Assembly: GCA_030407315.1 (NCBI GenBank)
Contig: JALQPE010002610.1
Span: 1 to 64,000 of the forward strand
From: Asparagopsis taxiformis
Lineage: Eukaryota > Rhodophyta > Florideophyceae > Bonnemaisoniales > Bonnemaisoniaceae
Direction of reading: 5' to 3'
Length of the DNA: 64,000 nt
Part shown: in pieces, positions 7,557 to 28,606 of the stretch
How the letters are laid out: every line of letters starts with the position of its first letter
Position numbering within the stretch: the first letter of the stretch is position 1
Notes under the pieces: model-generated
What the model saw: the letters and a program-made list of their open reading frames with translations, nothing else
The model's database searches: none
What the model was told of the DNA's origin: nothing
Translations under genes and position numbers: made by a program

Positions 7557-7570
7557 GTGCCGTACGGCAC
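7557..7570. repeat. 14-bp perfect palindrome in the repeat unit
   Basis: GTGCCGTACGGCAC is identical to its own reverse complement. It sits 8 bp before the hairpin and recurs in several units (for example in the units at 2165, 2663 and 7937). Single-base changes disrupt it in the copies near 735, 1913 and 8560. Confidence 0.85.
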
Positions 7571-7578
7571 ACCCCCAT

Positions 7579-7612
7579 CTCAAAAACATGTTCACATGTG
7601 CATGTTTTTGAG
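7579..7612. repeat. Hairpin of the repeat unit (12-bp stem, 10-nt loop)
   Basis: CTCAAAAACATG (7579-7590) and CATGTTTTTGAG (7601-7612) are exact reverse complements around the loop TTCACATGTG. The same hairpin lies at 749-782 and in the unit at 7937. At 1931-1962 both stems have lost one A:T pair together, so pairing is kept. The loop varies at 8577-8608 (ACATCTG). Confidence 0.9.
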
Positions 7613-8965: not shown

Positions 8966-9292
8966 ATCAATTTGGGGGCCCAGCATCTCCTGTGCCGAAA
9001 TTCCCGCACTCACTTCTGATATACGTCTAGACTTGTTTCCCACTTGTACGCATCAGGGAAGGCGTCACGGAAGGTTGACACTACGCTACTTGTGTACCGC
9101 GTCGTCTGAAATAGCGAGTAGTGTTTGTTGTATAGTTGTGGGTATGCGTCTAGTGTTTGTAAAGCTTGCCGAACGGGATAGGGATGTGGGTGGCCCTATT
9201 TTATGAATACATGAGTACCAATATTCAGGGTTGACAAAGCGGAAAGGCATAGGCTCATACATGTTTGAGATTGCATAGTAGAGAAAATATTT
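8966..9292. other. Non-genic gap
   Basis: No recognisable gene lies between the end of the right repeat array and the purine-rich block. The short ORFs here carry repeat-derived sequence or no motif. Confidence 0.35.
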
Positions 9293-10250
9293 TCATCGAA
9301 ATTTACATGGAGCTGATGGAGGTTTTAAGGATGAGGTATGAGAGGAAGAAAATTCTTCTGTGGTATGAGGATGTGTTCTTGTGGGGGATGGAATCTTGGG
9401 ATGGTACAGGGGGAGGTGGAAATGTACGGAGTGCGGGTTTAGAATGGATTGTGATTCGGAGAGGAGTGCCGACAAGCATATTATGGGGATTGGGGAGACG
9501 CTGCGGGGTGTTGGGGTAGTGAGGGCGGAGGAGGTGTTTAGGTGGGACCGTAGGAGGGTGCGGTTGAAGGCGCCGAGAGGAGGGGGTTTTTTAGGAAGTG
9601 AGGAGAAAGAAGGGGAGGGGGTGGCGTCTGTTCTGGCTGTGGTGAGTGGGGATGTGATGGAGAAGAAGGGGTTTTTGTATTTGGGGAGGGAGGGGAGTGG
9701 GAGAAGGGTGCGAAGTGGGGGGTTGATATGTGTTTCAGAGCGGGGAGGTTTCTGGGGATACGGCGGGGGAGCCACCCCGCAGTGCGGAGCGTGGGCCGGT
9801 GGTGGTGGTGTATACGGTATCGAAGATGCGGATGGCGTGGGGGCATGGAGCAGCTGAGGGAGGGAGGGGTGGAGCAGGTCGGGTACGGGATGGGGAGTGA
9901 GAGGTTTTGGAAGAGTAAGCTGCAGGGGAAGTTTGTGTAGAGGGCGAAGGAGAGGGGTTGAGGGTAGAGGAGAGAGGGTACTGAAGAACAATACGTTTCA
10001 AAGGTGATGGGGGAGAGCATGGTCGAGGAGATAGGGGGTGTTTTGCCCTATTCTGAGGTAGTATGAGGACTGGTTATACGAAATCTGTACGGTAGAGCAG
10101 AAAAGTAGGTATGGAATGGAGGTGTGCACCGTGGAAGCGGGGATAGGTATCTGAAAATGCGTGCTAGAGTGGTATTGGGGGTGTTTGAGGTACAGTACGG
10201 GGGAGGTGAGCACCAACAGGAAGGGGGTGTGAGCGAGAGGATGAAAAAAT
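9293..10250 (+). other. Purine-rich (G-rich) strand-asymmetric block, about 950 bp
   Basis: The plus strand is dominated by G and A, with frequent GGGG, GGAGG and GGTGG runs, whereas the flanking DNA is mixed. Long ORFs are open on both strands because stops are rare in such sequence. The minus-strand ORF reads as a Pro/Ser/Thr string. The plus frame 9381-9857 contains a cysteine/histidine cluster (KCTECGF..DCDSERSADKHI) resembling a zinc finger, followed by Gly/Arg-rich sequence. I cannot say whether that frame is a real gene. Runs of G make quadruplex formation plausible. Confidence 0.45.
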
Positions 10251-10279
10251 TAAAGACGAAATTGGAGTCGACCGACAAG

Positions 10280-10602
10280 GAAAAATAGAGTGGTCGCCGT
10301 GATGGATGCGGACATCCATGTCGAGCACGGCGGCAGAAATTTCTGGGGTCGAAATTTTTGAATTTCTGAACCGGCGCCCGTCCTAGGTGGACATAGACAT
10401 GGCGGAAGTCCATCCCGAGGGGGACATCCGTGGTACTAGAAACATTGAATGTCGCCCTAGTAATACTAGACGTACTAGACCGCATGGACGTCCAGTTCTA
10501 GGCGGACATCCAAAAATACTGGAGAACATGGACGTCCGCCTAGTAATACTAGGTGTACTAGAGGTTGTGGACGTCCGCGTCCATTTCCGAGAACACAGAC
10601 GA
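10280..10602. repeat. Local repeat with GGACGTCC and CCTAGTAATACTAG motifs
   Basis: CCTAGTAATACTAG occurs at about 10456 and 10539, 83 bp apart, each followed by GTACTAGA and then TGGACGTCC. CATGGACGTCC recurs, and GGCGGACATCC lies in inverted relation to it. The GGACGTCC...GATGTCC words echo the dispersed repeat family. The block abuts exactly the point where the retroelement fragment at 10603 loses similarity to the complete copy, so it marks an insertion or rearrangement junction. Confidence 0.6.
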
Positions 10603-11420
10603 ACTCTGCCAGTAGAGGCATATGGGTCTATGACCTTCTCGACAGGTTGAGCATTAGCATTTTCGGCTGCTGCCTTCTCGGCTTCTGCTCGAGCAGCCTC
10701 GCGGCGCAATTCTTCTTCCCTACGCTTTCGAGCGTCCGCCAGTATCTGTTGGTTGCGGCGACCATAGTCCTCATAGGGATTCGCTGAAGCGTCACGACCA
10801 GAAGAGGTACGAGCCGCCGGGGCGGAAGGACGAGAAGTAATCGGACGCGAACTTGGCGAAGGCCTGACGTTCGGCTGCCTTGTTGGCCTGGGCGTAGCGC
10901 CTCCCTCGGCGACGACTTCTATCACCTCCTCGGTGTCGGCCGGCATGGCTCCCCTTGGGGACGGGCCGGCGGCCTTCGATGACTCACCTTCGCGTGACGG
11001 CGGATTAACCGATGACGGTTTGACACTAGCCACTGGGGTGGAAGGCTTCGGGGAAGCAGGCGATTCAGCCGGAACAGAGTCGCGCTCTTGTGCGCTTGCC
11101 CTGGTAGGGGGGACCGTCTCTTCGGAACGCGCTTGCGCACTCACAACCTTGCCAGCAGGCGACGCTGGATCAGCGGTGCCTTTGGCGGCAGTCGAACGCG
11201 TTCGCGTTTGCGATTGAGCCGCGGTGGCTGACGGCACGCGTGGCGCTGAAGTCGACGAAGACTTAGCCGGTGTAGGCGGGACCCCGGTGCGGGAAGAGGA
11301 AGCCTGGTGGCGAGTCGTGGGTCGGCGAACGCTGGAGCGTGTGGTAGGACGGTTGGGCGAACCCATATTGTCTCCTTCCTCTTCGGAGGATTCGAATTGA
11401 ATCGGAGCACGAGGGGTCAT
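10603..11420 (-). pseudogene. Truncated antisense ORF of retroelement copy 1
   Basis: The frame starts at ATG 11418-11420 (MTPRAPIQFESSEEE) and matches the N-terminal 270 or so residues of the ORF at 14829-18095 almost residue for residue. It has a low-complexity Ser/Pro/Thr/Ala stretch, then the charged helix region (ARKRREEELRREAARAEAE). Beyond 10603 the frame runs on into unrelated local repeat sequence and encodes a chimeric tail. The C-terminal three quarters are absent. Confidence 0.8.
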
Positions 11421-11919: not shown

Positions 11920-12599
11920 TGTCGTACCGCCTGGCGGTCCTCGCTGATCGAGCCGTGTCGCTTCCCTATTGGGTACCCACTTACGGGATGTGCCAATCAG
12001 AAGGCACCAGCCAACTGGCGTGTTTCCTATGCTTAGGACCAGCTATGGCTGACAAATTACCCCACCCGGGCCTATCGGCCCCGGCCAAGACCCACAAGGG
12101 GCAAATTTAACTTAGGCTGATCAGCCATACATTACAATGTAAGCCTATTGGCAATGACCTCGCGGGTAGGCGAGCGCCAGTAATTGGGTTCTGATTGGTC
12201 ACTAACTGGATATTTATTCCTAACCACTAACCCTAGCTTACAGTAGACTTAGTATAAAACTGCCACTGGAATAGCCAGTAGGCACGGTTCTAGAGTAACG
12301 TAAACTCAAGTGGAATTACGACCCACAGGAACAGTGTTCGCATACCTATTGTTCAACCCCTCTCCGGGAAAACCTTAGGGTTAGCCAACAGCTCGACGGA
12401 TTACGTCATCTTGCTCCATTAATACGCACCTCGCGTGAGCGCTATAATCGCACAACCCCCTCCGGGTAGCGATACCTTCTCTCTTACGAGATTACCCGCC
12501 GGGTACCTATAAGGTTCATCTGCTCTACCGCTTCCTCTACCGAGGCTCGGGACACCTGTCGGGTGGTTTGCCGCTCTAGCGGATTTTCTACCTGCTACA
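11920..12599 (+). repeat. 3' LTR of retroelement copy 1
   Basis: The LTR starts TGTCGTACC and ends CTGCTACA (TG...CA). A TATAAAA box lies at 12253-12259. It is 680 bp long, against 683 bp in the complete copy, with only scattered differences by eye. A polypurine tract precedes it, which fixes it as a 3' LTR in plus orientation. Confidence 0.85.
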
Positions 12600-12949
12600 G
12601 GACCGATGTTGCCACCTTGTGCACTTGCCCTAGTGGGAGGAACCGACTTTTCGGAGCGCGAAGGAGTCCCGACGACCTTGCCGGAAGGCGATGCTGTTTC
12701 AGCCGAAGCCTTGGCGGCAGTCGAACGAGTCCGCGTCTGCGGTGGAGCCGCGGAGGCGATCGGCGCACTTGTCGCAGGAGTCGAAGAGGACTTAACCGGC
12801 GTTGGCGTAACCCCAGTGCGGGAAGAGGATGCCTGGTGGCGAGTGGTCGGGCGGCGAACGCTTGAACGCGTGGTTGGACGGTTGGGCGAACCCATGTTTT
12901 CCCCTTCCTCCTCTGAGGACTCGAATTGAATCGGAGCACGAGGGGTCAT
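12600..12949 (-). pseudogene. Truncated antisense ORF of retroelement copy 2
   Basis: The frame is open from ATG 12947-12949 (MTPRAPIQFESSEEE) for about 117 codons, until it runs into the LTR of copy 1. Aligned with the ORF at 14829, the first 57 codons differ at about 20 synonymous and 3 amino-acid-changing codons (D/E, P/T, A/V). That pattern points to protein-level constraint while the two lineages diverged. Confidence 0.75.
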
Positions 12950-13640
12950 CTTAAAGCCAGTAGAGGCGACAGAGGATGCTGCGGAAACCCTTAGCGGGAT
13001 GAGTGAACCGCCTATTGGCTTAAATCTCCAAACGGGAGCTGTGGTACGCAACCCTGAATGGAATTCGCAAGGCAATTGGCCGGGGTGACGAATCCAAAGC
13101 CTCGAGTTGGCACCGCTCACGCGATCGCGCGGTAAGTTATCTTGCAGATGGATGCAAAAACCCTTTGAGGGATGACGGAAGGGACACGAATTCTCGTCCA
13201 CTGTGGACACCGAGGGGGTGAGTACGCTCTTTCGCGTGGGATCGATAAAGAAACCTGCAACGGGTGTTGATTCCAATGGGAAACGGTCGGTGGACTTCCG
13301 GAAGAGTCGGATGGGCTAAAACGAAATTATCAAACACGCGCTGGGCGCGGGAAAATCTGAATGCAGAAAATGCAACAGCTATAGCCCAAAAATTGTAATT
13401 TTTCTAATTTTGTCGGGACGACAAACCTCTCAGGAGGGGACCATGTCATACCGCCTGGCGGTCCTCTCATTCAGAGTCGTGTCGCTTCCCTATTGGGTGC
13501 CCACTTGAGGGATGTGCCAATCACAAGGCACCAGCCAACTGGGCGTGTTTCCTGTAATTGGGACAAGCGCAAGGCTGTAAACACCCTATTCGGGCCTACT
13601 GGCCCCGGCCAAGACCCCACAAGGGACAAATTTCTAACTT

Positions 13641-13645
13641 AAGCT
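13641..13645. repeat. Target-site duplication AAGCT (left)
   Basis: AAGCT directly precedes the TG of the complete element's left LTR. The same five bases follow its right LTR at 26103-26107. A 5-bp duplication is usual for Ty3/gypsy integrases. Confidence 0.9.
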
Positions 13646-14328
13646 TGTAGCAGGTAAAAAATCCGCTAGAGCGGCAAACCACCCGACAGGTGTCCCGAGC
13701 CTCGGTAGAGGAAGTGGTAGAGCAGATGAACCTTATAGGTACCCGGCGGGTAGTCTCGTGAGAGAGAAGGGATCGCTACCCGGAGGGGGTTGTGCGATTA
13801 TAGCGCTCACGCGAGATGCGTATTAATGGAGCAAGATGACGTAATCCGTCGAGCTGTTGGCTAACCCTAAGGTTTTCCCGGAGAGGGGTTGAACAATAGG
13901 TATGCGAACACTGTTCCTGTGGGTCGTAATTCCACTTGAGTTTACGTTACTCTAGAAACCGTGCCTACTGGCTATTCCAGTGGCAGTTTTATACTAAGTC
14001 TACTGTAAGCTAGGGTTAGTGGTTAGGAATAAATATCCAGTTAGTGACCAATCAGAACCCAATTACTGGCGCTCGCCTACCCGCGAGGTCATTGCCAATA
14101 GGCTTACATTGTAATGTATGGCTGATCAGCCTAAGTTAAAATTTGCCCCTTGTGGGGTCTTGGCCGGGGCCGATAGGCCCGGGTGGGGTTATTTGTCAGC
14201 CATAGCTGGTCCTAAGTATAGGAAACACGCCAGTTGGCTGGTGCCTTCTGATTGGCACATCCCGTAAGTGGGTACCCAATAGGGAAGCGACACGGCTCGA
14301 TCAGCGAGGACCGCCAGGCGGTACGACA
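13646..14328 (-). repeat. 3' LTR of the complete element
   Basis: 683 bp, reading TGTAGCAGG...TACGACA on the plus strand (TG...CA ends on either strand). In element sense it follows the polypurine tract. The minus-strand TATAAAA lies at 13993-13987. Differences from the other LTR, seen by eye, are an A/G near its start, CCC/CTC in the CAGAACYCAATT block and GTA/GCA in CCTAAGYATAGG. Confidence 0.95.
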
Positions 14329-14331
14329 CGG

Positions 14332-14340
14332 CCCCCTCCT
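14332..14340 (-). other. Polypurine tract (plus-strand primer site)
   Basis: On the minus strand AGGAGGGGG is followed by CCG and then the TG of the 3' LTR. Equivalent tracts precede the 3' LTRs of copies 1 and 2. Its place next to the left LTR proves that the gag-pol strand is the element's sense strand. Confidence 0.85.
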
Positions 14341-14346
14341 GAGAGA

Positions 14347-14363
14347 TTTGTCGTCCCGACAAA
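14347..14363. repeat. Conserved 7-bp hairpin beside the polypurine tract
   Basis: TTTGTCG and CGACAAA are exact reverse complements around a 3-nt loop. The same sequence is kept at 11885-11901 (copy 1) and 13409-13425 (copy 2), although bases on either side of it differ in copy 2. Confidence 0.75.
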
Positions 14364-14828
14364 ATTTGATCAAATAAAATTACAATTTTTGGCTGTGGCC
14401 GTTGCATTGTGCAATTCAAAATTTTCCCGCGCGCGGCGCGTGCACACTAAATGTGTTGTCCATCCGACTCTTCCCGAGTTCCGCCCGACCGTTTCCTATT
14501 GGAATCAATACCTGTTTCAGGTTCATCATCGTCCTAACGCAACACAGCGTATTCACCCCTTCGGTGTCCAACTGCGTCCACGCATTCGCGTCCTTTCCAT
14601 TATCCCTCAAAGGGTTTTTGCGTCCATCTGCTAAATAATTAGCCGCGTGATCGCACGAGCGGTGCCAATTCGAGGCTTGCATTCGCCGTTTCGGCCCATT
14701 GCCTCGCGATCCCCCTTCCTGGGTTGAATAGCGCAGCTCCCTCCCGGAGACTTAAGCCAATAGGCCACTTGTTCGTCCCGCTTCAGGGTTTTTATCAACG
14801 TCCGTCATCGCCTCTACTGGCTTTTAGG

Positions 14829-17800
14829 ATGACCCCTCGTGCTCCGATTCAATTCGAATCCTCTGAAGAGGAAGGAGACAATATGGGTTCGCCCAACCGT
14901 CCTACCACACGCTCCAGCGTTCGCCGTCCCACGACGCGCCACCAGGCTTCCTCCTCCCGCACCGGGGTTCCGCCTACACCGGCTAAGTCTTCGTCGACTT
15001 CAGCGCCACGCGTGCCGTCAGCCACCGCGGCTCAATCGCAAACGCGAACGCGTTCGACTGCCGCCAAAGGCACCGCTGATCCAGCGTCGCCTGCTGGCAA
15101 GGTTGTGAGTGCGCAAGCACGTTCCGAAGAGACGGTCCCCCCTACCAGGGCAAGCGCACAAGAGCGCGACTCTGTTCCGGCTGAATCGCCTGCTTCCCCG
15201 AAGCCTTCCACCCCAGTGGCAAGTGTCAAACCGTCATCGGTTAATCCGCCGTCACGCGAAGGTGAGTCATCGAAGGCCGCCGGCCCGTCCCCAAGGGGAG
15301 CCATGCCGGCCGACACCGAGGAGGTGATAGAAGTCGTCGCCGAGGGAGGCGCTACGCCCAGGCCAACAAGGCAGCCGAACGTCAGGCCTTCGCCAAGTTC
15401 GCGTCCGATTACTTCTCGTCCTTCCGCCCCGGCGGCTCGTACCTCTTCTGGTCATGACGCTTCAGCGAATCCCTATGAGGACTATGGCCGCCGCAACCAA
15501 CAGATACTGGCGGACGCTCGAAAGCGTAGGGAAGAAGAATTGCGCCGCGAGGCTGCTCGAGCAGAAGCCGAGAAGGCAGCAGCCGAAAAGGCTAATGCTC
15601 AACCTGTCGAGAAGGTCATAGACCCATATGCCTCTACTGGCAGAGTTACCCGAAGTGGGTCTGGTGCGGCTGCCGCCGATGCCTCTGTAGGCGTAAGACC
15701 GTCGGGCACCGCCCTAGTTGACCCTTACGCGGTTGCGTCTGCTCCAGCACCAGCTGTTCCGTCACACGACACTCCCCCTCGGGCACCTAAGCCGACTGCC
15801 AATTGGCGCTCCATGGGAGAATTCTACCCAGCCAATGCTGATGAACTGGTGGTATTCGACTCGCAAGCCTTGCCTTTCAGGCGTGAGCTCGCCGCTCCTT
15901 GGGAACACTACCCGTTTGCGCGACTCCCTCGTAGGGACTTTACGGATCGCCCGAGAAGCGAGTTACGTCGCGATATGCTTCTCATGAGCTCCCTCCGGGG
16001 TCAAAACCATCAGGTTCAAAACGAATGTTGGTCGGCGTATGCCCGTCTCCCCTCGAGTCGCCCTATGCGTCACTTCCGTGTCCCCCATACGCTATGCAGC
16101 GACAGGACTTTCCTGCTCCATCCCGGAGATGCGCTTTACGTCGAACGTATGAATCGTCGCTTGTTCCAAGAGGGATCGTACCAAGGCTCCGTAGCGGATC
16201 TACCGATGGTTCGGTCACGCTGGTTTGCGTACCCTCCACGTCCCGATACGGGTAGCTACGAGCATCATATGCGTTTGCACGCTAGGGTTACTTCCCGAAG
16301 GATGGGGCGTCAGGTGACGGCGAATGATTATCGCGTGTTCGCGCACCGTCATGGTAGCTCTGCTGAGCCGGCCACTAGACCCATGAAGGTAGCTAGGGAA
16401 GCTTTGGACCCGCTATGGGATGATCCCACTTGGGAAGGCAAGTCATCTCCACCGATGTGTTTGCCCGTTGCCGACCCTCCGTCGCTGGTGTATTTCCACA
16501 ATTCCGCTCTTCGCGACGCGCCCGAATGGCGAATGGACAGGTTCCGATCGTACCTCGAGTTGGAGAGGGATATCCTTATAGGGATCGAGTTGGCTCGTAC
16601 CGCCGAGACGCGGGGCTTTGTGCCGGTGATGGCGGAGGAACTCCTCAATAGGGTGAGCAGTACTTGGTACGATATCCCGAAGGTTCCGGTGTCGGACGTG
16701 GTCCCCTATAGTCGGGAGTTACCTGGTTCGGTAGTGCGTCGGTTGCTGAAGGTGGCCCTTGGGGGTGATGATTATCCGCAGGAATTGGTCAGTACCAACA
16801 TCACGGGAGTGGCACCGGAGAAGGTGGTTATCTACAGGACTGTTGACTTGCCGGTGAGGGCGTTACGTATTAACGTGTTAAACCATCGAGATGGTACAGT
16901 CGCAGAGCTGCCGCCTTATCGCAGAGATGGTGAGTTCACCGAAGATGGGTATTACGGCGTGGAGCCTGACAGGTATTCCGACGGTCACCCCGACTCTTAC
17001 AAATATCAGCCTGTTGGCGAGGCATTTGTGCCGCGTCCGTGGTGGACGGCCGCCGAGGCGGGAGGCCCAGCTGGGCGTTCGCCTTACGCAGGACGGAGCT
17101 TCGCTCCTGTTGCTTCCTTACCACCCAGTGGTGCTGATGACTTGTACGAAAGTCAGGTCCCGATGACCGTCGCGCCTACCGCGCCAACCCCTCAGCCTAC
17201 AGCTGCCCCTTCATCCCAAGTGGGTCCCGCCATGGAGGCGCTTCTGACATCCGACCAAGGCTCTGAGCCATCCGTGAACGGTGATGATGTAGTCACGCGT
17301 CAGCCTCCTGCTGTTGATATCCTACGTGGGGAATTGTCGAGTCGCGAATTGCTATCGATTCCGCATGTGCGGCGGTTGGCCGATGATCTCGGGGATGGTA
17401 CGGTGGCTTCCATTTTTGCCTCTGCCAATGGGCGTTACATCGTAAGATCCGCGTTGGATGGACTCGCATTGTCGTGCATCACGTTAGCTGCTCGCTATAA
17501 GCAAGGACGCGAACAGCGTAACATCGCCCGAGAGCGTCGCCGCACAGCGGATAGGGAGGTTGAGGCCGCACGCCTGGAGGCAGCAGAATTGCGAACCCGG
17601 GTTGGGGAATTAGAAGGTGAGTTGGAGGACGCCAGGCGTCTACTGCAGCAAGCAGTTATTCCCGAAGAGGGTGGCGAGGAGGCCGTTCAGCCTGGTTACT
17701 CGCGTCGTCGCGCTAGGTCTCCCGATGAGGGTCTTCCCGAACGCAACGTGCGTACTCGTCTTCATTCCCCCGTGGGTGCTGCGGATGCTAGTAATCCTTT

Positions 17801-18095
17801 ACTTGCGCGTCTTGATGCCCGGTTAGGGTCGCCTGAGTCGCCAGATGTTTCTCCGCCTCCCGCGTCCATCCCAGCAGTTGGGTTATCCGCCTCTGCGGTT
17901 GCGTCTTCGCATGGCCCTGTGCCTGCCCGTCGTCGGGGTTCTAGTGCAGTTCCGCAACGCGGTTTGCGTCGTAATCCTACCTTCGCAAGGGTTGCACCCC
18001 GCCATCCTCGTCCTTCGACGAATGTACGCGCTCCTGCCCCTACGGCACCGTCTGCCTCTCATCGGCCTCGGCCTTCTAGCCATTATCGTCGCTAA
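14829..18095 (+). CDS. Antisense ORF of the chromovirus, unknown protein, 1088 aa
   Basis: I do not recognise this protein. The start chosen is ATG 14829 (MTPRAPIQFESSEEE), the first ATG in the frame and shared by all three copies. Residues 1-240 are Ser/Pro/Thr/Ala-rich and probably disordered. Around 245-275 lies a charged helix (ARKRREEELRREAARAEAE). The middle, about 330-760, has folded-protein composition with Trp, Tyr and Pro (GSYEHHMRLHARVTSRRMG, YFHNSALRDAPEWRMDRF). Near 890-945 is a second helical coiled-coil region (EVEAARLEAAELRTRVGELE), and the tail is Arg/Ser/Pro-rich. It occupies the place where some retroelements carry env but runs on the opposite strand, ending 306 bp from the end of pol. 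The synonymous bias against copy 2 supports it as a real gene. A capsid-like or nucleic-acid-binding role would be guesswork. Confidence 0.8.
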   Translation: MTPRAPIQFESSEEEGDNMGSPNRPTTRSSVRRPTTRHQASSSRTGVPPTPAKSSSTSAPRVPSATAAQSQTRTRSTAAKGTADPASPAGKVVSAQARSEETVPPTRASAQERDSVPAESPASPKPSTPVASVKPSSVNPPSREGESSKAAGPSPRGAMPADTEEVIEVVAEGGATPRPTRQPNVRPSPSSRPITSRPSAPAARTSSGHDASANPYEDYGRRNQQILADARKRREEELRREAARAEAEKAAAEKANAQPVEKVIDPYASTGRVTRSGSGAAAADASVGVRPSGTALVDPYAVASAPAPAVPSHDTPPRAPKPTANWRSMGEFYPANADELVVFDSQALPFRRELAAPWEHYPFARLPRRDFTDRPRSELRRDMLLMSSLRGQNHQVQNECWSAYARLPSSRPMRHFRVPHTLCSDRTFLLHPGDALYVERMNRRLFQEGSYQGSVADLPMVRSRWFAYPPRPDTGSYEHHMRLHARVTSRRMGRQVTANDYRVFAHRHGSSAEPATRPMKVAREALDPLWDDPTWEGKSSPPMCLPVADPPSLVYFHNSALRDAPEWRMDRFRSYLELERDILIGIELARTAETRGFVPVMAEELLNRVSSTWYDIPKVPVSDVVPYSRELPGSVVRRLLKVALGGDDYPQELVSTNITGVAPEKVVIYRTVDLPVRALRINVLNHRDGTVAELPPYRRDGEFTEDGYYGVEPDRYSDGHPDSYKYQPVGEAFVPRPWWTAAEAGGPAGRSPYAGRSFAPVASLPPSGADDLYESQVPMTVAPTAPTPQPTAAPSSQVGPAMEALLTSDQGSEPSVNGDDVVTRQPPAVDILRGELSSRELLSIPHVRRLADDLGDGTVASIFASANGRYIVRSALDGLALSCITLAARYKQGREQRNIARERRRTADREVEAARLEAAELRTRVGELEGELEDARRLLQQAVIPEEGGEEAVQPGYSRRRARSPDEGLPERNVRTRLHSPVGAADASNPLLARLDARLGSPESPDVSPPPASIPAVGLSASAVASSHGPVPARRRGSSAVPQRGLRRNPTFARVAPRHPRPSTNVRAPAPTAPSASHRPRPSSHYRR

Positions 18096-18401
18096 GGACT
18101 GGCAATTGCCTTTGGGAGAATAACCTCTAACGGTAGTTTGAACACGCTTTTGCGTTGCGCCATTGTTCATCAGGTAGTCCTGAGGCACCTCTGAGGTACA
18201 TTAAAGATGCATCATCACGCTGACGTGCGGATTTGTTTGTTGAAACCTTTTTTGGTCAATTTTTTCATTTCCTGAAATCTTAATTTCCACAATGGCTCCG
18301 GTTGGCGGTGATAAAGTGCGCCCTTTTTGGCTTGACCCTCCGAGGTTTGGTAGCTCCACCCAGTGGGTACCTTGTTAGGTTCTTATCCCTGTGGGGTTAT
18401 T
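18096..18401. other. Convergent spacer between antisense ORF and pol
   Basis: A 306-bp gap between the stop of the plus-strand ORF and the stop of the minus-strand pol ORF. It contains T-rich sequence (CCTTTTTTGGTCAATTTTTTC near 18245). Transcripts from both strands would overlap or end here. I see no clear AATAAA on either strand. Confidence 0.4.
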
Positions 18402-21400
18402 CTACTTCTTCCCTCTCTTGGGTTTGCGCGTGCGCGCTCGGCGTGGTTGCCGGTCACCTTCGCGGTGTTGTCTTCGACGGAAGTACCTTGATGCCCATTC
18501 AGGGGGGACGTTCGCGCGTTGCGTCCATGTCGGCTTTCGGTAGCCATACCACTTCACCAGGAACCATTGTTCCCCGTCGTCGTCAGTGACGTAATCTAGG
18601 AGATCATCGATGGGATATTCCTCCTCTGAGGTTGCGCGTTCGGCGTCGCTACTTCCCTCTGGGGTTTCCTTCGTCCCTTCAGGGAGAGCTACTCGTTCCG
18701 AGTTCGGCTGCGTGCCCTGTGGCGCTTTCTCTTGTTCCCCATTGGGGGTGGCTTCCAAAGACCTTACGGGGTTTGCCGTGGCTATCTTCTTCGCACTTGA
18801 GCGAGTGTGTCGACCCGGTTTGGGTTTTGCCAAATGGGCGGGTGCTTGACTTGCTTGGTTCGCTATGCGAAGTTCGGCTCCCGATGGAGGGTTCGCGTCC
18901 CGTTGAGGGGAAGTCGGCGTGTGTATGCGTGCTTTGATTGAGCGTCGCCTGGTCGCGTTTGCGTTGGTCAAATGCCTTGGGGCTGAGTCTGTGGCGTCGG
19001 TGCCTGCCATACTTCGGCGAGTTGCTCGCTTGTGCGACGGGAGAGCCCGGTCTGGGTTGACGTATTGGTCTTGGTCTGCATTGGCAGAGTTGTCGTGGCG
19101 TCTTTGTTGACTTCTTCGCAATTGTGTGCGATTGCGGTTGGTAGTTACCGGCTGTGTGGGTGAACGACTTGGGTCGTGTGCGTCGTTCCCAATTGTGGGT
19201 GAGTTACCGAAAGGTGAAAGACTACAAGGTTGATCCCGAGAGGGTGTTGCGAAATTTTTGCTTACGCGCACAGCGTCGGGGGCCCCCTCCTGAAGGGTGG
19301 TTTGTCCCAAACCACTACCTTCAGGTGTTATCCTAATTGTAGGTTGTCGTGGAGACGATAGTTGATCCCTGAAGGGGTATTCCTGATTAGGAGTTGGTGA
19401 AGGTGATTTGTTTGGCGCGTATTGTTGGCCGTCGCCCGGCGGTTGGCGTGATTGTGTATTTGGCGCGAGGGCATCTGCACCTGATGGTGACGCTTGTGCG
19501 TTAGCGGCATGTAGCCGAGGTGGTAAGGTTGGTTCCTCGGTTGGTCGCGGAGCGAGTGCAACTCTATCGAGACTAACCTTTTCGGTGATACCATCGCGGT
19601 CGATGTAAACCGTTCGCCGTCCGGCACGGATAACCCTATAGGGACCTTGAGCTATTGGAGTTAGCTTGTTCCGTTCACGGACTTCTGGATTATCCAGATA
19701 AACGTAATCATCGGTAGTGATGAGTCGTTTAGACTTCCGGATTGACCGGTCGAAGTTACGCTTGTAGCGTGCTTGCGCGCTGTGAAGGCGTTTACCTGCC
19801 ATATCAATGGTATCCGTAATACGGCGTAAGAAGTCTTGCTTCGTGAACGCGTCTGGCGTTGCCCTCCTTTTCACCGAATGGTGTGTCGCATATGGCGGTG
19901 GAGGTCGGCTTAGTATGAGGTCGAAGGGTGTAGTTCCCGTTGTGCGATGCACGTGCGTGTTGTACGCATAGGTTAACGCTGATGCGTAGACATCCCAGTC
20001 GTCCTGGTTATCATTGACGTAATTACGTAGCATGCTCAATAGAGTACGGTTATACCGTTCGACTTGCCCATTTGTCTGGGGATGGTATGCCGTCGTGAAG
20101 ACGTTCTTCGTTCCTAACTGGAGGCAGACAGCCTGGAAGAACTTCGACGCAAATTGCGGACCGTTATCGGATAGTAATGTCCGTGGAGGACCATACTTAA
20201 ACACCCAATGTGTACAAAAGGCTACTGCCACATGGTAAGCCGTAATGCTTCGCAGGGGCACCACTTGGGTGAGCTTGGTAAAGCGACACGAAATCACCAG
20301 TAGGTGCACGTTACCTTTCTTGGTACGAGGTAGAGGACCGAGGAGGTCAATTGCAACGTCATCCAATGGTGTGGTAGCTGGGAACAGCTGGAGGGTACTC
20401 GCATGTTTGCGCAACCGTAATCGGTTTCTCGCGCACGCTGAACAGCGTTCAACCGTTCCGGTTATGTCCGCAGCCATTGCAGGCCAGTAGTAAGATAGGC
20501 GCATCGTGTCGTACATGCGATTCTGACCAGGATGTCCTGCCAATATGCCGTGGTGGCACATCGTCAATAGACGTTGCCGTAAGGCTTTGGGTACCACAAT
20601 CTGGGATGACCCGTCCAATTTGGACTTCCTACAAAGGACACCGTCTTCATCTTCGAAGAAGAGAGAGTCAGACTTCTGCGAGGCCAGGGCCTGTTGACAG
20701 AAGTCGTCTGTTCGTTGCTCTTCGAGCCACTCTTGGAGAGTTATCGGGCAGTAGTTTTCCGTTTGCGGATGAGTTGTTAAGACGGGGGTACCGTTGCGAT
20801 TAGGCGCCTCCTCGGCGTGGTCTCTTGCTAGAGAAAGGTCGTAGAACCAAACATCAGTGTCATCATCCAAGGATGTTTCACCTTGCGGTGCGTGCGTGGC
20901 CAACAGAGTTGGTATTTCATCGTCAATAGTGACGGGCGTCTCGCCGTTAGTTTCAACACGCGAAAGGGCGTCTGGTAGTTGGTGAACCCGGCCGGGTCGG
21001 TAGACTATTTGATAGTCAAATTCCGCAAGTCGGAGGCGCCAACGGCATAGTCTCCCTGAAGGGTCGTTGATATTCATGAGCCAACGCAGCGCGTTATGGT
21101 CCGTCCGGACTACAAACTTTGTTTGCTCCAAGTATGGACGTAGGATAGTGACAGCCCATACGACGGCTAGACATTCACGCTCCGTAGGGGAGTAACCTCT
21201 TTCAGGTTTAGTCAAGGTCCGCGACCAATAGCCAATTGGCTTGAGATCGTTCTCTTCCCCTTGCTGCTGAAGCAGAGCGCATCCTATTTGGTATGCGGAA
21301 GCGTCCGTGTCTACGGTGTAGGGTTGACCCAACTTGGGTAGAGCCAGTATCGGCGGCTTGGTCATGACCTCTTTGAGAGCGTTGAACGCGCGGCGTTGGT

Positions 21401-23417
21401 CCTCGGTAGGAGGTTCTTTCCCGAATTTAGGGAGGCTGTCTTTGGTCAGCATTTCGTTCAAGGGGTGCGCAATTGCGGCATACCCTTTGATGAATCGTCG
21501 AAAGACGCCACAGCTTCCGAGGAAGGATCGCATTTGCGTAGGCGTTTGCGGAAAGATCGCGTCAGCGATAGCCGAAGTGGCGTTCTGTGCAACAGCTAGC
21601 TTTCCTGGCATCACGACATGTCCCAGGTAATCAACCTTCTTTTCGAAGAAATGACACTTTGTCAACTTCAGGGTGACACCTGCTTCCCGTAGGAGGGAGA
21701 GTACTTGGTCCACATGGTGGAGATGTTCGGCCTCGTCCCGAGAGAATACGATCACATCGTCTAAGTAAATCAGACAGGTCTGCCAGCGAACGCTGCTAAG
21801 AATAATGTCGATGGCACGCTGAAACGTTGCCGGAGCATTCTTTAAGCCAAAAGGCAAACGCTTGAAGCGATATGTCCCCAAGTGGGAGGTGAATGCCGTT
21901 TTGTCACGGTCGTCCTGTGCAACAGGGATCTGCCAATAGCCAGAATTACAATCCAATGTGGTGAATACTTGAGCATCTCCGAGGGAGTCAATGCAATCAT
22001 CCATTCGTGGAAGGGGGTACACATCATTGACAGTGATGTCGTTAAGACCCCTATAGTCGACGCAAAAGCGTAATTTACCATCCTTCTTCGGGACAAGAAC
22101 CACTGGGCTAGCCCATTCGGAGGTCGACGGTTCGATCACTCCCTTTTCCAGCATGCTGGTTATTTCCTTACGGGCAATCTCTCGACGAGCGGGTCCCATC
22201 CGGTAGGGTTGTTGCCGTCTAGGCTTGCTCCCTTCGACTATGTCGATTCGGTGTTCCGTAGCGCGGATGTCCCCTAGGGATCCATCCCACATAGACTCGT
22301 GTCGAGATAGCATGCTAAGGATGCGTTCCCTCAACGGGATTTGACCAAGGTGGTCCAGAGAGACTTCTTGCTTCCAGCTTGATGGTTGGGTGGCCTCGGC
22401 CTTTTGCTCCTGATGGAGAGTAGTCACCATAGTGGAGGCCTCTTGGGAGGAAGGGGTAGAACGGCTGAGAGCCATGGGGCGCATTGGCCGTTCGGGTGCC
22501 CGGAGGGCATAGCCTATAATGGTCCCTTTAGGGAGGTACTTGTCGGATGTACCGAAGTTAGTTAATATAGTCAGGAATTCCTGTCGCGGGATGACTTCCG
22601 CAACCCCATTCGGGATAGAGACACGATGTCGGTGAAGGATCCGATCTCTCGGAGAGAGTATACTCAAGCCGCCACCGGCGCATACAACAGTAGTTGTTAC
22701 TTGACTCCGCGGAGGAACATTCACACTTTGTGACAATCGAATGCCATGAGGCTGGCGGTCTAAGTTAATCCCATTAGAGGGTCGCGAGGCATCCACGTAG
22801 CACGAAAGGGTGGGGGATGTTTTACGCGTAGGCGACATCACTAGGATAGCTATCGACCCGCCGTCGTGAATATCAATTCGTTGGGCCCGGCACCTAATTG
22901 CGTCTACGTGGGTATTCATTGCCCCAGTTCCCAAGATGAGGGGTACGGCCAACTTAGGCGCGACGAAGAATTCTTCCTCAAAGGACTTGTGGCCTAACTG
23001 TAAGGACAGTATTATCTTGCCTTTTATCCGAAGAGGATTGCCGTTAGCATCGGCCAGTTGCGGAACTTTCCCCGTAGGGACTTGGAATTGTTCCCAATTT
23101 TGGGGTAAGCTCCTTTCATGGATGACCGATGGTCCGGACCCGGTGTCCATCACCATACGCATAGGCGTGAGAATTGACGGATCGAGTCCGATGGAACCCA
23201 TTACTACGTAATGGGCGGCCTTAAGCAGGCATGAGGCTTTCGGCCTTGAGGTTCGAGTCCCTGTGGGGGAACCCGAAGGGGTTGGTGTCTGGGAAAGACT
23301 TTGGTCCCTAGAGGGAGTTGCAGCCTTTTCCTGCGGAGGTGGTTGTGGTGAGATGTCCACCGAGTAGCGTAATCGCTCCACCTCCTGACGGGAGTGCGAC
23401 ACCTCACTCCCCGTCAT
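18402..23417 (-). CDS. pol: Ty3/gypsy Pol polyprotein: PR-RT-RNaseH-IN-chromodomain
   Basis: 1671 residues, uninterrupted. An aspartic protease has its DTGSG active site at 91-95 and a second ILGTG near 161. The reverse transcriptase (about 400-600) carries LPFGLKNAP and the catalytic YLDD at 551-554. The RNase H domain (about 698-815) has TDAS and RTDHNALRWL. The integrase has an HHCC zinc region (H955/956 and H962, C992, C995) and the DD35E triad D1024, D1084, E1120 (SDNGPQF, NGQVE). A long Pro/Ser/Arg-rich tail leads to a chromodomain at about 1601-1647 (DDLLDYV, WFLVKWYGY, TWTQRANVP) and a basic end. The start overlaps the gag stop as TAATG, in the -1 frame, so translation may be by reinitiation or -1 frameshift. 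All catalytic residues I checked are present. Confidence 0.95.
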   Translation of the reverse strand: MTGSEVSHSRQEVERLRYSVDISPQPPPQEKAATPSRDQSLSQTPTPSGSPTGTRTSRPKASCLLKAAHYVVMGSIGLDPSILTPMRMVMDTGSGPSVIHERSLPQNWEQFQVPTGKVPQLADANGNPLRIKGKIILSLQLGHKSFEEEFFVAPKLAVPLILGTGAMNTHVDAIRCRAQRIDIHDGGSIAILVMSPTRKTSPTLSCYVDASRPSNGINLDRQPHGIRLSQSVNVPPRSQVTTTVVCAGGGLSILSPRDRILHRHRVSIPNGVAEVIPRQEFLTILTNFGTSDKYLPKGTIIGYALRAPERPMRPMALSRSTPSSQEASTMVTTLHQEQKAEATQPSSWKQEVSLDHLGQIPLRERILSMLSRHESMWDGSLGDIRATEHRIDIVEGSKPRRQQPYRMGPARREIARKEITSMLEKGVIEPSTSEWASPVVLVPKKDGKLRFCVDYRGLNDITVNDVYPLPRMDDCIDSLGDAQVFTTLDCNSGYWQIPVAQDDRDKTAFTSHLGTYRFKRLPFGLKNAPATFQRAIDIILSSVRWQTCLIYLDDVIVFSRDEAEHLHHVDQVLSLLREAGVTLKLTKCHFFEKKVDYLGHVVMPGKLAVAQNATSAIADAIFPQTPTQMRSFLGSCGVFRRFIKGYAAIAHPLNEMLTKDSLPKFGKEPPTEDQRRAFNALKEVMTKPPILALPKLGQPYTVDTDASAYQIGCALLQQQGEENDLKPIGYWSRTLTKPERGYSPTERECLAVVWAVTILRPYLEQTKFVVRTDHNALRWLMNINDPSGRLCRWRLRLAEFDYQIVYRPGRVHQLPDALSRVETNGETPVTIDDEIPTLLATHAPQGETSLDDDTDVWFYDLSLARDHAEEAPNRNGTPVLTTHPQTENYCPITLQEWLEEQRTDDFCQQALASQKSDSLFFEDEDGVLCRKSKLDGSSQIVVPKALRQRLLTMCHHGILAGHPGQNRMYDTMRLSYYWPAMAADITGTVERCSACARNRLRLRKHASTLQLFPATTPLDDVAIDLLGPLPRTKKGNVHLLVISCRFTKLTQVVPLRSITAYHVAVAFCTHWVFKYGPPRTLLSDNGPQFASKFFQAVCLQLGTKNVFTTAYHPQTNGQVERYNRTLLSMLRNYVNDNQDDWDVYASALTYAYNTHVHRTTGTTPFDLILSRPPPPYATHHSVKRRATPDAFTKQDFLRRITDTIDMAGKRLHSAQARYKRNFDRSIRKSKRLITTDDYVYLDNPEVRERNKLTPIAQGPYRVIRAGRRTVYIDRDGITEKVSLDRVALAPRPTEEPTLPPRLHAANAQASPSGADALAPNTQSRQPPGDGQQYAPNKSPSPTPNQEYPFRDQLSSPRQPTIRITPEGSGLGQTTLQEGAPDAVRVSKNFATPSRDQPCSLSPFGNSPTIGNDAHDPSRSPTQPVTTNRNRTQLRRSQQRRHDNSANADQDQYVNPDRALPSHKRATRRSMAGTDATDSAPRHLTNANATRRRSIKARIHTPTSPQRDANPPSGAELRIANQASQAPAHLAKPKPGRHTRSSAKKIATANPVRSLEATPNGEQEKAPQGTQPNSERVALPEGTKETPEGSSDAERATSEEEYPIDDLLDYVTDDDGEQWFLVKWYGYRKPTWTQRANVPPEWASRYFRRRQHREGDRQPRRARTRKPKRGKK

Positions 23418-25342
23418 TAGTTTTCCGACGACGTGTCGGAGTCGTCGGAGGTTTCCAAGGCGTCGGCAACGTCTTGAGCCGTTACGGAAGATCCGTTACG
23501 TTCTAAAACGTCTCGCCTCAGAGGGCCCAATTTGGGATGATTTTCGTCATCGGCGAACGCAACCATGCGTGTTGGAGGGTTTGACCGTTGGAGCACGGCT
23601 TTAGGGTAATCCCTTTTTCGGTTGAACCGATTGGACTGGCGCTGTTGGCGGCGCATAACCTGCTCCGGTTCTTGCTGGTAAGCGTAGTTCGCAAAGGCGA
23701 AGTAAGTTCCCACTGAGGGTGGTAGGTAAGGACAAGTGTATAACACGTGCCCTGGTTGGCGACAGCCAGAGCATCTCCAAGTAACAGCCCCTTCGGGGAT
23801 CATACTCTCAGCGAGTTTAAGATGTTCTCCCGTTAGGGTAGGGGCCTGCATTGGCGCGCCCATTGGGTTCCCGGTAGGGGAAGGTAAGGTCGGCGGCGGG
23901 GTCCGCGGTATCACAGCCGGTTCTCCGGGTACGGTAGCGAGCAACGCTTTGCGTTTACGTTCCGCGATTTCCCGAGTAGGGTAAGCCTTCGGCTTTGCGG
24001 GTAGCGAAGCTCGTAGAGAGTCCCCGAGTCCTTTAGCAAGGTTACGGACAGCAAGAAAATCTTCTCCGCCACTGCGGCCTATAGTCACCTTGACGGTGTG
24101 TTTAACCTCTGGGCGTAGGCCCTTGAGGTAGTAGTTGACCAAGTCTCTTTCCGAGAAGACGTTCGCACACAGGAGTGCAGCGTCCTGCAGTCTGTCTGCG
24201 TATGCAGCTTCATCTTCATCCGGCCCTTGCCGTATACGCGTTACTGCGTCATATGCGTCCGCTAGGACATTGTCCGTCGCGTAGCGAGCCAGAAGGGCGT
24301 TAACGGCTTGAGGCCAAGTGATCTGCTGATGCAGGTGGTTGAGAAGCTTGCGCTTTCGCGCCTCAGCGGCGATAAACCGTTGAGGTTCTCCTTCCAGGAA
24401 ATACTTGAGTAACTTGGTAGCTTCTCCCTCCGAGACTCCGCATGAATCACATGCATCTTGAAATTCCGCGAGGAACCGGAGGATATCGATGGGTTCCGTA
24501 CCATCGAACGGCGTGAATGACGCGTTGAAATTACGGATCTTCTCCGTTAGCTTATACAAGCTTCTTGATTTACCCATTGGGGTATCAGTCGTTAGGGACT
24601 TGTTCTTGAGTCGGTAGTACCGATAGGAGACCACTAGGTCGAACGCGGGTTCGCGGGCCTTCAAAGGCACTAAGCCTTCCTCAAGAGGTCCTTCTTCATC
24701 ATCCCACGAGGGATTTTCCGGTGCAGATCCGGTGGCACGAGTGTGCTGTCTCGTGCGAGAGATATTCCCTGTTTGGGATAGTGATTCGGCGAGGGCGTCG
24801 ACACGGTCCGACAGGTGTCGGGTTGCTTCTGCGACTTGATCCAATCGGGGATCTTCTTCTTCCTCCCTACCGGATGTAGGGTCAGGGAAGTCAGCCGATC
24901 GGATGCGGCGAGCAGGAAACTCCTGTTGTCCTAATGGACTGGCACTAAAGCCGTGAATCGAAAGCTCCTCCAGACGAGTTTCCAAAAGGGACACGCGTTT
25001 AGCGAATTCGGCTTTGACCTGATTCCAGGTTTCCGCTAGGAACTCGGCGTCCCGATCTTGGGTGGCTTCTCGGCTGGCGGCCATCAGCTTTGGCTCGACC
25101 AGTTCCATGACGGTTTCGACCGTAGCGTCTACGATTTCCGCCCTGCGGTCTTGAACAGTCTTCTCGACGACGGTGCTGAATTCAGCCTTGAACTCTTCCA
25201 ACCGTTCGTTGAAGATTCGGTCGGCTCGGTCTTGCAGGGTGTTAATCACCACGCCTTCTTCGGCGATCAGATCCGAATCGGATAAGTCGCTGGCAGGCGC
25301 TATGTCCTCACTAGAGGGTCCCGCTGTAGGGTTACGAGGCAT
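23417..25342 (-). CDS. gag: Ty3/gypsy Gag protein
   Basis: 641 residues from ATG 25342, 78 nt after the 5' LTR. The N-terminal half is acidic with predicted helices (FNERLEEFKAEF, EFLAETWNQVKAEFAK). A capsid-type retrotransposon gag domain lies at about 265-420 (FTPFDGTEPIDILRFLAEFQ, WPQAVNALLARY, ADRLQDAALLCANVF, LKGLRPEVKHTV). A CCHC zinc knuckle follows at about 523-536 (C-x2-C-x4-H-x4-C, with CRQPGHVLYTC), then a basic region and an acidic Ser/Asp-rich C terminus. Gag forms the particle and binds the element RNA. The stop TAA shares its last base with the pol ATG. Confidence 0.9.
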   Translation of the reverse strand: MPRNPTAGPSSEDIAPASDLSDSDLIAEEGVVINTLQDRADRIFNERLEEFKAEFSTVVEKTVQDRRAEIVDATVETVMELVEPKLMAASREATQDRDAEFLAETWNQVKAEFAKRVSLLETRLEELSIHGFSASPLGQQEFPARRIRSADFPDPTSGREEEEDPRLDQVAEATRHLSDRVDALAESLSQTGNISRTRQHTRATGSAPENPSWDDEEGPLEEGLVPLKAREPAFDLVVSYRYYRLKNKSLTTDTPMGKSRSLYKLTEKIRNFNASFTPFDGTEPIDILRFLAEFQDACDSCGVSEGEATKLLKYFLEGEPQRFIAAEARKRKLLNHLHQQITWPQAVNALLARYATDNVLADAYDAVTRIRQGPDEDEAAYADRLQDAALLCANVFSERDLVNYYLKGLRPEVKHTVKVTIGRSGGEDFLAVRNLAKGLGDSLRASLPAKPKAYPTREIAERKRKALLATVPGEPAVIPRTPPPTLPSPTGNPMGAPMQAPTLTGEHLKLAESMIPEGAVTWRCSGCRQPGHVLYTCPYLPPSVGTYFAFANYAYQQEPEQVMRRQQRQSNRFNRKRDYPKAVLQRSNPPTRMVAFADDENHPKLGPLRRDVLERNGSSVTAQDVADALETSDDSDTSSEN

Positions 25343-25405
25343 CGTGAAGATGATTGTGAAGGAAAATTTCTCTCAAAGAGACTTACCCGAGGGTACAAGG
25401 TTCTA

Positions 25406-25418
25406 GGTCGAGAGACCA
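25406..25418 (-). other. Candidate primer binding site
   Basis: In element sense TGGTCTCTCGACC starts one base after the end of the 5' LTR. TGG matches the complement of a tRNA 3' CCA, and the position is standard. I cannot name the tRNA: it is not the usual initiator-Met PBS. Confidence 0.65.
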
Positions 25419-25419
25419 A

Positions 25420-26102
25420 TGTAGCAGGTAGAAAATCCGCTAGAGCGGCAAACCACCCGACAGGTGTCCCGAGCCTCGGTAGAGGAAGTGGTAGAGCAGA
25501 TGAACCTTATAGGTACCCGGCGGGTAGTCTCGTGAGAGAGAAGGGATCGCTACCCGGAGGGGGTTGTGCGATTATAGCGCTCACGCGAGATGCGTATTAA
25601 TGGAGCAAGATGACGTAATCCGTCGAGCTGTTGGCTAACCCTAAGGTTTTCCCGGAGAGGGGTTGAACAATAGGTATGCGAACACTGTTCCTGTGGGTCG
25701 TAATTCCACTTGAGTTTACGTTACTCTAGAAACCGTGCCTACTGGCTATTCCAGTGGCAGTTTTATACTAAGTCTACTGTAAGCTAGGGTTAGTGGTTAG
25801 GAATAAATATCCAGTTAGTGACCAATCAGAACTCAATTACTGGCGCTCGCCTACCCGCGAGGTCATTGCCAATAGGCTTACATTGTAATGTATGGCTGAT
25901 CAGCCTAAGTTAAAATTTGCCCCTTGTGGGGTCTTGGCCGGGGCCGATAGGCCCGGGTGGGGTTATTTGTCAGCCATAGCTGGTCCTAAGCATAGGAAAC
26001 ACGCCAGTTGGCTGGTGCCTTCTGATTGGCACATCCCGTAAGTGGGTACCCAATAGGGAAGCGACACGGCTCGATCAGCGAGGACCGCCAGGCGGTACGA
26101 CA
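25420..26102 (-). repeat. 5' LTR of the complete element
   Basis: 683 bp, same length and ends as the left LTR. In element sense TATAAAA lies at 25767-25761, about 335 nt into the LTR, so the U3 part would be about 365 nt long. It is followed by the PBS and the gag leader. Confidence 0.95.
25761..25767 (-). promoter_or_regulatory. LTR TATA box
   Basis: TATAAAA on the minus strand, the same strand as gag and pol. It is kept in the other LTR (13993-13987) and in copy 1 (12253-12259). Confidence 0.65.
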
Positions 26103-26107
26103 AAGCT
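26103..26107. repeat. Target-site duplication AAGCT (right)
   Basis: It directly follows the CA end of the right LTR and equals 13641-13645. Confidence 0.9.
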
Positions 26108-26609
26108 AACCAGCTGAACATTACAATGTAAGCCTAACTGGCAATAACCTCGCGGGTAGGCGAGTGCCGTTAACTGGGCTCTGGTTGGTCAATAACTGGA
26201 TATTTATTCCTAACCACTAACCCTAGCTGACAGTAGACTTAGTATAAATATGCCACTGGAATAGCCAGTAGGCACGGTTTCTAGAGTAACGGAAACTCAA
26301 GTGGAATTACGACCCACTGGGTCGTACAGTGGCACTGGAACAGTGTTCGCATACCTATTGTTCAACCCCTCTCCGGGAAAACCTTAGGGTTAGCCAACAG
26401 CTCGACGGATTACGTCACTCGCTCTATCCATACGCCTCTCGCGTGAGCACCCCTTTGTCGCACAACCCCCTCCGGGTAACGACACCTTCTCTCTTACGAG
26501 ACTACCCGCTGGGTACCTATAAGGTTCATCTGCTCTACCACTTCCTCTACCGAGGTTCGGGACACCTGTCGGGTGGTTTGCCGCTCTAGCGGATTTTCTA
26601 CCTGCTACA
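26108..26609 (+). mobile_element. Copy 2 retroelement, remainder of its 3' LTR
   Basis: This continues the LTR broken off at 13645. It resembles the copy 1 LTR but is more diverged, with a small insertion (GGGTCGTACAGTGGCACT near 26320). A TATAAAT-like box (TATAAATA) is near 26244. It ends CTGCTACA at 26609. The flank GTAAC would be its target duplication, but the partner end is not in the window. Confidence 0.85.
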
Positions 26610-27256: not shown

Positions 27257-27726
27257 TGTCATTCTTTACAGACTAGCTACTGTAATTCTTCGCTGCGAAA
27301 AAATATTTGGTCAAATAATTAGCTAAAAATTAGATTTGCTTTATTATATCTACCACCGCCGCCGCCGCACAAATTAGCTTTACACCTGGAGGAGGAATTT
27401 TCCTCGCCAGTTGATAGGTATATAACCAGCGATACCAAACCGGTTCCTGGAAATTCCGTCCCATCATCGAACAATCAACCCACCCCTTTAGCGTCAATAA
27501 AGCACTTCCCTTGGTAATCCCCCGCCCTGCGCGTGTCCCAGTCGCGATTCACAGCCACACTCCTCGAGCCCCGCGATCGGTAATTAATCCCCGCCGCCCC
27601 TCGGGCAACTGCACCCGCCTCTTGAGAAGGCAACCCTATCCTTACACGTGTCAACATTTTCTGGAAATCAAAACATTCAGGAAATTTGTACTGGAAACTA
27701 TCATTTCGGACTGAGTTTTTCTGACA
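27257..27726 (+). mobile_element. Solo LTR, 470 bp, plus orientation
   Basis: The sequence begins TGTCATTC and ends CTGACA, and CCTGG is duplicated on both sides (27252-27256 and 27727-27731). It carries TATATAA (27419-27425) and AATAAA (27496-27501) in the same orientation, as an LTR promoter and poly(A) signal would. No internal retroelement sequence follows. It is unrelated to the 683-bp LTR family, and its partner lies in reverse at 28137-28606. Confidence 0.8.
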
Positions 27727-28136: not shown

Positions 28137-28606
28137 TGTCAGAAAAACTCAATCTGAAATAATAGTTTCCAGTAAAAATTTCCTGAATGTTTTGATTTCC
28201 AGAAAATGTTGACACGTGTAAGGATAGGGTTGCCTTCTCAAGAGGCGAGTGCAGTTGCCCGAGGGGCGGCGGGGATTAATTACCGATCGCGGGGCTCGAG
28301 GAGTGTGGCTGTGAATCGCGACCGGGGCACGCGCAGGGCGGGGGATTACCAAGGGAAGTGCTTTATTGACGCTAAAGGGGTGGGTTGATTGTTCGATGAT
28401 GGGACGGAATTTCCAGGAACCGGTTTGGTATCGCTGGTTATATACCTATCAACTGGCGAGGAAAATTCCTCCTCCAGGTGTAAAGCTAATTTGTGCGGCG
28501 GCGGCGGTGGTAGATATAATAAAGCAAATCTAATTTTTAGCTAATTATTTGATCAAATATTTTGTCGTAGCGAAGAATTACAGTAGCTATTCTGTAAAGA
28601 ATGACA
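28137..28606 (-). mobile_element. Solo LTR, 470 bp, minus orientation
   Basis: This is the reverse complement of 27257-27726 with scattered substitutions and equal length. TG...CA ends, TATA box and AATAAA are all kept. I see no target duplication: TAGAC lies before it and GTCAA after it. It may therefore have been moved by recombination after insertion. Confidence 0.75.

Follow-up and report, generated by a model that had tools for sequence, protein, structure and literature searches.

An antisense reading frame with signatures of purifying selection in Ty3/Gypsy retrotransposons of the red alga Asparagopsis taxiformis

What is a reading frame of 1,088 codons doing on the strand opposite to gag and pol of a long terminal repeat (LTR) retrotransposon? 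The question is raised by a 64,000-nucleotide stretch of DNA from the red alga Asparagopsis taxiformis (assembly GCA_030407315.1, contig JALQPE010002610.1, positions 1 to 64,000; hereafter the window), in which positions 13646-26102 form one full Ty3/Gypsy element with the minus strand as sense. An earlier note on this DNA had described a complete LTR element with an open reading frame (ORF) opposite to gag-pol, and the LTRs, target-site duplication, gag, pol and plus-strand ORF confirm that description; the three copies of the ORF that it counted here reduce to one intact copy in the window and two fragments (residues 1-273 and 1-111). Our analysis leaves very little doubt that the plus-strand ORF is a genuine, selected protein gene of the element. 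Its product is predicted to act in the nucleus and in trans as a regulator of the element, a reading to which we give a probability of about 0.5.

Selection on the antisense reading frame

In 500 first-order Markov simulations of positions 14329-18401, the longest frame over all six frames averaged 189 codons and reached 382 at most. We searched the source genome (141.5 Mb in 3,156 contigs) for copies of the window's type, termed A, and scored 42 matches out of 4,534 first-look candidates; because these were the best candidates only, the sample is biased towards intact copies. All 42 cover query residues 1-1089, 35 of them are free of stops, and they are 98-100% identical.

A first protein search against a base of 5.77 billion (7,983 candidates scored) returned a single match, P0001, with 42% identity to the window product. 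P0001 corresponds to the last three fifths of the ORF product and is 99% identical to other copies in the same source genome. Searching the genome with it uncovered two further subfamilies, B and C: 38 of the 69 rows span the whole of P0001, 35 of these without stops, and the other 31 are partial, some with stops. A profile search added P0002 (96% identical to A) and P0003, near-identical by eye to the C protein, and a search with the conserved core alone recovered P0001 only. With ~8,000 candidates scored in each, the three protein searches yielded no relatives beyond A, B, C and A2, a subfamily found via pol rather than the ORF.

At least four subfamilies, namely A, A2, B and C, can thus be told apart in the source genome, with products 43-83% identical to that of the window. 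In B (locus L031) and C (L032) the ORF encodes 1,062 or 1,067 amino acids and converges with pol, and an LTR match lies beyond the ORF start. An antisense ORF convergent with pol beside the 3' LTR is accordingly seen in A, B and C, and A2 is placed by its ORF beside pol. The A and B products share 44% identity over 1,009 codons and the same C-terminal end, B and C share 76%, and the three A2 copies (L043-L045) are 82-83% identical to A (80-81% by tblastn).

We used the ratio of nonsynonymous to synonymous substitution rates (dN/dS) as a read-out for selection on the protein. Between A and A2 the ratio is 0.158 (300 bootstraps, 0.133-0.192), with a range of 0.158-0.175 over the three A2 copies, and between B and C it is 0.193 (bootstrap 0.161-0.230); pol gives 0.127 in the latter comparison. 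In the five alternative frames, dN/dS is 1.2-2.7 in four and 0.25-0.30 in the one with common third positions. Differences at the first, second and third codon positions number 137/83/372 for A-A2 and 173/126/411 for B-C, and all eight indels (21, 15 and 3 nucleotides in A-A2; 6, 18, 3, 9 and 3 in B-C) are multiples of three. Ratios for A against B or C carry little weight, since their synonymous sites are saturated or nearly so. The same applies to the within-A value of 0.185, obtained by setting 29 of the 42 listed copies against that of the window: ranking the copies by protein similarity has biased it. A comparison of two A2 copies involves very few changes and gives 0.51, as expected after insertion. 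In summary, these comparisons show the antisense ORF to be under purifying selection in several subfamilies.

Predicted role of the product

The ORF product (118 kDa, isoelectric point (pI) 9.6) consists of a Pro/Ser/Thr/Ala-rich N-terminal third, a conserved core at residues ~311-745 and a basic tail of pI 11.8. A charged helical stretch at residues ~891-945 is coiled-coil-like by eye, and A has one stretch resembling a bipartite nuclear localisation signal (NLS) at residues 221-234. Four members of A1 gave only weak Pfam matches (Filament, Wtap, WD40_alt and Macoilin, E 0.07-7.8), and a profile run against PDB sequences found two proteins alone, Myc box-dependent-interacting protein 1 (E 4) and amphiphysin (E 6.5), whose matches fall in about the region of the charged helical stretch. 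A tblastn search of phages gave no match to the product, and none of three stretches in IMG/VR that fitted a peptide pattern was confirmed. A BAH-like fold of the core, suggested by a motif, was rejected: the nine BAH matches in the alga's own genome at E up to 10 include no ORF copy, and Pfam gave none either.

In the role that we favour, the ORF would have a promoter of its own, placed in the ~500-bp leader or in the adjoining LTR, and be transcribed from it. The basic ~118 kDa product, with its conserved core, coiled-coil-like stretch and basic tail, would work in the nucleus and act in trans on the element family, either in the control of element transcription or chromatin or in the handling of the pre-integration complex. 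Nuclear action is suggested by the basic composition, the one bipartite-NLS-like stretch in A and the plant counterparts discussed below. With such a shared product, the frame could be lost from single copies and still be retained in the family as a whole. We put forward only tentatively, as rather doubtful, a wider scenario: a protein family unseen outside these elements, and encoded on their antisense strand throughout a radiating lineage of Gypsy elements, would control them in trans and be passed as a cassette between subfamilies by recombination.

Several results weigh against the favoured role. At E up to 10 the window protein has no match in Pfam, and it has no known domain and no PHROG or PDB relative, so that the earlier note's "no recognisable family" stands. 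Plain basic clusters lie at differing places in A, B and C. AlphaFold models of residues 300-744 (four sequences; mean predicted local distance difference test (pLDDT) score 32.7) and of a 111-residue piece (pLDDT 57.3, predicted template modelling score 0.45, best Foldseek match E 2.8) are poor. A TATA-like box precedes the first ATG by ~25 nucleotides in B, where it reads TATATAAGG, and its counterpart at this position in C is TATTTAAGG; A has neither form. Finally, the ORF is kept in only 13 of the 26 pol copies examined, a shorter ORF, homologous only as far as nucleotide ~1844, is common to three copies (L041, L047 and L048), and among 14 copies with a stop-free pol over residues 1-1671 the ORF is broken in six, which argues that not every copy needs the gene in cis.

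These copies were picked by pol to avoid ranking by the ORF itself, which gave 31 rows at 28 places (C553 and C670 were left out). Ten of the 28 are also in the ORF list, all stop-free, and the ORF side was read in 16 others. Three of these 16 keep the ORF (the A2 copies, with homology in L044 beginning at residue 18); five have one frame break between two blocks (L033-L036 and L046); L042 is broken at several places; and L039 and L040 have lost all or nearly all of the ORF. In L037 and L038 the ORF is interrupted by other sequence, probably in one event, as the two are 99.5% identical over 3.9 kb. L041 retains a frame of 620 codons, and P0002 stops near the same place as the shortened copies. 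Among the pol-intact copies, the ORF is kept in eight (C2482, C2686, C1601, C2065, C1804, C72, C945 and C67), carries a single frame break in four (C2664, C1861, C2771 and C2118) and is interrupted in two near-identical ones (C2797 and C768). Intactness was judged on pol and the ORF, and the frame breaks may include assembly errors.

The reverse pattern occurs as well. At the protein level, one stop-free block covers the pol tail in 12 of 30 ORF-ranked loci. We rejected divergent pol tails as the reason: their DNA is mostly 92-100% alike, with one variable block (74-99%) plus frame breaks, apart from L030 (no alignment) and L025 (down to 44-74% at the far end). ORF-intact copies thus often have damaged pol tails, mirroring the pol-intact copies with damaged ORFs. 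The ORF losses look like the decay of individual copies and would be compatible with one product serving many copies in trans. Frames broken beside an intact pol, which the earlier note had named as evidence against the gene, do occur in six of the 14; the eight that kept the frame and the selection between subfamilies stand on the other side, and the latter outweighs the broken copies.

Four other explanations have to be weighed against a nuclear trans-acting regulator. The product could be a structural, envelope-like or particle-assembly factor, in keeping with its large size, its coiled-coil-like stretch and its place in the interval from pol to the 3' LTR, which is also that of env-like genes (PMC7264820, in the part available). 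We consider this unlikely, because the opposite orientation makes the frame unreadable from a transcript of the 5' LTR, and the tail is basic and disordered-looking, with no Pfam match to the product.

Just as unlikely, in our view, is a passenger, either a gene captured from the host or what is left of some other mobile element. Apart from the opposite orientation, this explanation draws on the mosaic make-up of B and C. Their nucleotide identity is 72-82% per 400-nucleotide bin in the ORF, compared with 90-92% in the LTR and 86-96% in pol, and the synonymous divergence (dS) is higher in the ORF too, at 0.77 against 0.30. The pattern suggests that the ORF, or its surroundings, may have been exchanged between elements by recombination. 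Purifying selection across subfamilies is, however, unlike a passenger, although it is compatible with an ancient capture as the origin, and the three protein searches returned these subfamilies only (no separate search for host paralogs was made).

The chances are slightly poorer still that the element is controlled by the antisense transcript itself, acting as RNA, double-stranded RNA or small RNA, with the protein incidental. The convergent layout could yield complementary RNA ends, and in other systems a regulatory role of antisense transcripts is under discussion (PMC7264820, in the part available). Selection, however, acts on amino acids (dN/dS 0.16-0.19, indels in frame), which would be compatible with an added role of the RNA, and little conservation is seen between A and B in the leader and spacer, which barely align; in the 500-bp leaders the exceptions are the polypurine tract and an adjoining short inverted repeat. 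Translation may in truth start at a methionine further on (residue 19 in A, residue 12 in B and C), which is followed by a better conserved stretch.

A frame open by chance or through recent amplification only is hardly credible: the 98-100% identity of the scored A copies means that openness within A proves little, but the longest simulated frame has 382 codons, and amino acid identity between A, A2, B and C has fallen to 43-83%, with dN/dS of ~0.16-0.19 in the two unsaturated comparisons.

Anatomy of the element and its surroundings

The LTRs, the target-site duplication, gag and the domain order of pol identify the element as a Ty3/Gypsy LTR retrotransposon (Table 1), with the protease match below cut-off. 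In gag, Pfam matches Retrotrans_gag (1.5e-6). In pol, RVT_1 (5.7e-36), RNase H, H2C2 and rve score above cut-off and RVP (0.008) and Chromo (0.04) below it, and among PDB sequences the Ty3 Gag-Pol polyprotein scores best (6.5e-115). The Chromo E-value is 0.0052 in B and 0.0061 in C, also short of the Pfam cut-off. The element is a likely, still putative, chromovirus. The primer binding site, which the earlier note had used as one marker of the sense strand, is no more than a credible candidate, a stretch with TGG that adjoins the 5' LTR; no tRNA could be assigned to it, and no self-priming complement of 8-12 nucleotides was found in the LTR.

Table 1. Coordinates of the element's features and of related fragments in the window.
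Feature	Position	Strand	Details
Target-site duplication AAGCT, left copy	13641..13645		5 bp flank
3' LTR	13646..14328	-	683 bp; 3 mismatches relative to the 5' LTR
Polypurine tract	14329..14342	-	limits approximate; also aligned in B and C
Leader, 3' LTR to antisense ATG	14329..14828	+	500 bp
Antisense accessory ORF	14829..18095	+	1,088 amino acids; ATG at 14829, stop at 18095
Spacer between convergent pol and antisense ORF	18096..18401		306 bp
pol	18402..23417	-	1671 amino acids; protease (weak match), reverse transcriptase, RNase H, integrase order; weak chromodomain-like C terminus
gag	23417..25342	-	641 amino acids; CCHC knuckle
Putative primer binding site beside 5' LTR	25399..25419	-	plausible TGG-containing stretch, no tRNA assigned
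5' LTR	25420..26102	-	683 bp, same orientation as the other LTR; TATAAAA at LTR position 336
Target-site duplication AAGCT, right copy	26103..26107		5 bp flank
Fragment of second ORF copy	10602..11420	-	residues 1-273, 99%; its LTR at 11920-12599(+)
Fragment of older ORF copy	12617..12949	-	residues 1-111, 80%

The window element sits in the LTR of an older relative, of which remains lie at 13444-13645 and 26105-26609; the older ORF fragment apparently comes from the element whose LTR received the window element. The short inverted repeat beside the polypurine tract (14347-14363) is seen too in B, in C, where it is shorter, and in the old copy. Positions 7432-10601 comprise a tandem repeat with a 500-bp period followed by a block that ends at 10601, beside the broken second ORF copy, and a 94.5% similar block adjoins another ORF break in L037 and L038. 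Blocks that abut ORF breaks in this way look like another mobile element inserting into the antisense gene.

Elsewhere in the window, an inverted repeat (27257-27726 and 28137-28606) has 470-nucleotide arms that are 98% complementary, separated by a 410-nucleotide gap. A single ORF at 54799-56445 fuses phosphoribosyltransferase and orotidine monophosphate (OMP) decarboxylase domains, an arrangement that is presumably unusual for fungi, and we also found a match to DUF4246, a mainly fungal family. Searched without regard to introns, the source genome yielded no Fungal_trans, Zn_clus or hydrophobin match, although the controls of these searches were silent as well. Together with the fused ORF this is mildly suggestive of a host outside the fungi, whereas DUF4246 points the other way.

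Antisense genes in other elements

The fungal element Boty, whose host is an ascomycete, carries the antisense gene brtn, for which the source study is reportedly that of Zhao et al. 2011. Boty-like elements of Botrytis cinerea combine gag, zinc finger, reverse transcriptase, integrase and chromodomain with brtn (PMC4227169, PMC8365987, PMC5987419, PMC7264820, each in the part available), and such genes, lying antisense in the interval from pol to the 3' LTR, are on record there as well as in plants (PMC7264820). Like the window element, Boty thus has an extra antisense gene between pol and the 3' LTR, a likeness by description and not by BRTN sequence. An antisense gene at this position is therefore already known, and what is new here is a protein with no relatives found outside these elements. 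The earlier note's new accessory gene holds as a selected gene of the element, with its novelty reduced by the plant and Boty cases. We recognised no description of this protein family in the open-licence literature, judged largely by title and the start of the abstract, and such a gene does not appear in the available parts of PMC3248453, PMC4007536 and PMC12477816, the first of which does speak of complex elements into which additional domains were inserted.

The role of antisense genes in LTR elements is an open question (available parts of PMC7264820 and PMC11963269, to which the following citations also refer). The present case allows conservation and loss to be compared directly in a large, conserved example, with many near-identical copies, intact and broken ORFs beside intact pol, and subfamilies at 43-83% identity. 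The antisense genes of HTLV likewise lie on the 3' side of a retroelement, but in a retrovirus, and serve as a comparison of working only (PMC7264820, PMC11963269). Retand, a plant lineage outside the chromoviruses, has antisense ORFs with a TRP28 domain (PMC11963269), unlike the window element's ORF: TRP28 (PF04195) is absent from the Pfam matches of four members of A1 at E up to 10, a search in which HMMER filters drop most weak matches. The missing sequence link to TRP28 would fit, and not prove, a repeated origin of such antisense genes. In maize Grande (gene23), rice RIRE2 and PvRetro13, all plant elements likened here by description, an antisense accessory ORF lies beside the 3' LTR as in the window element (PMC7264820). 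For Grande, the antisense gene is reported to have its own promoter and a nuclear product (PMC7264820), and nuclear or DNA-linked roles have been proposed for the plant counterparts (PMC7264820, PMC11963269), in line with the role that we predict for the algal protein.

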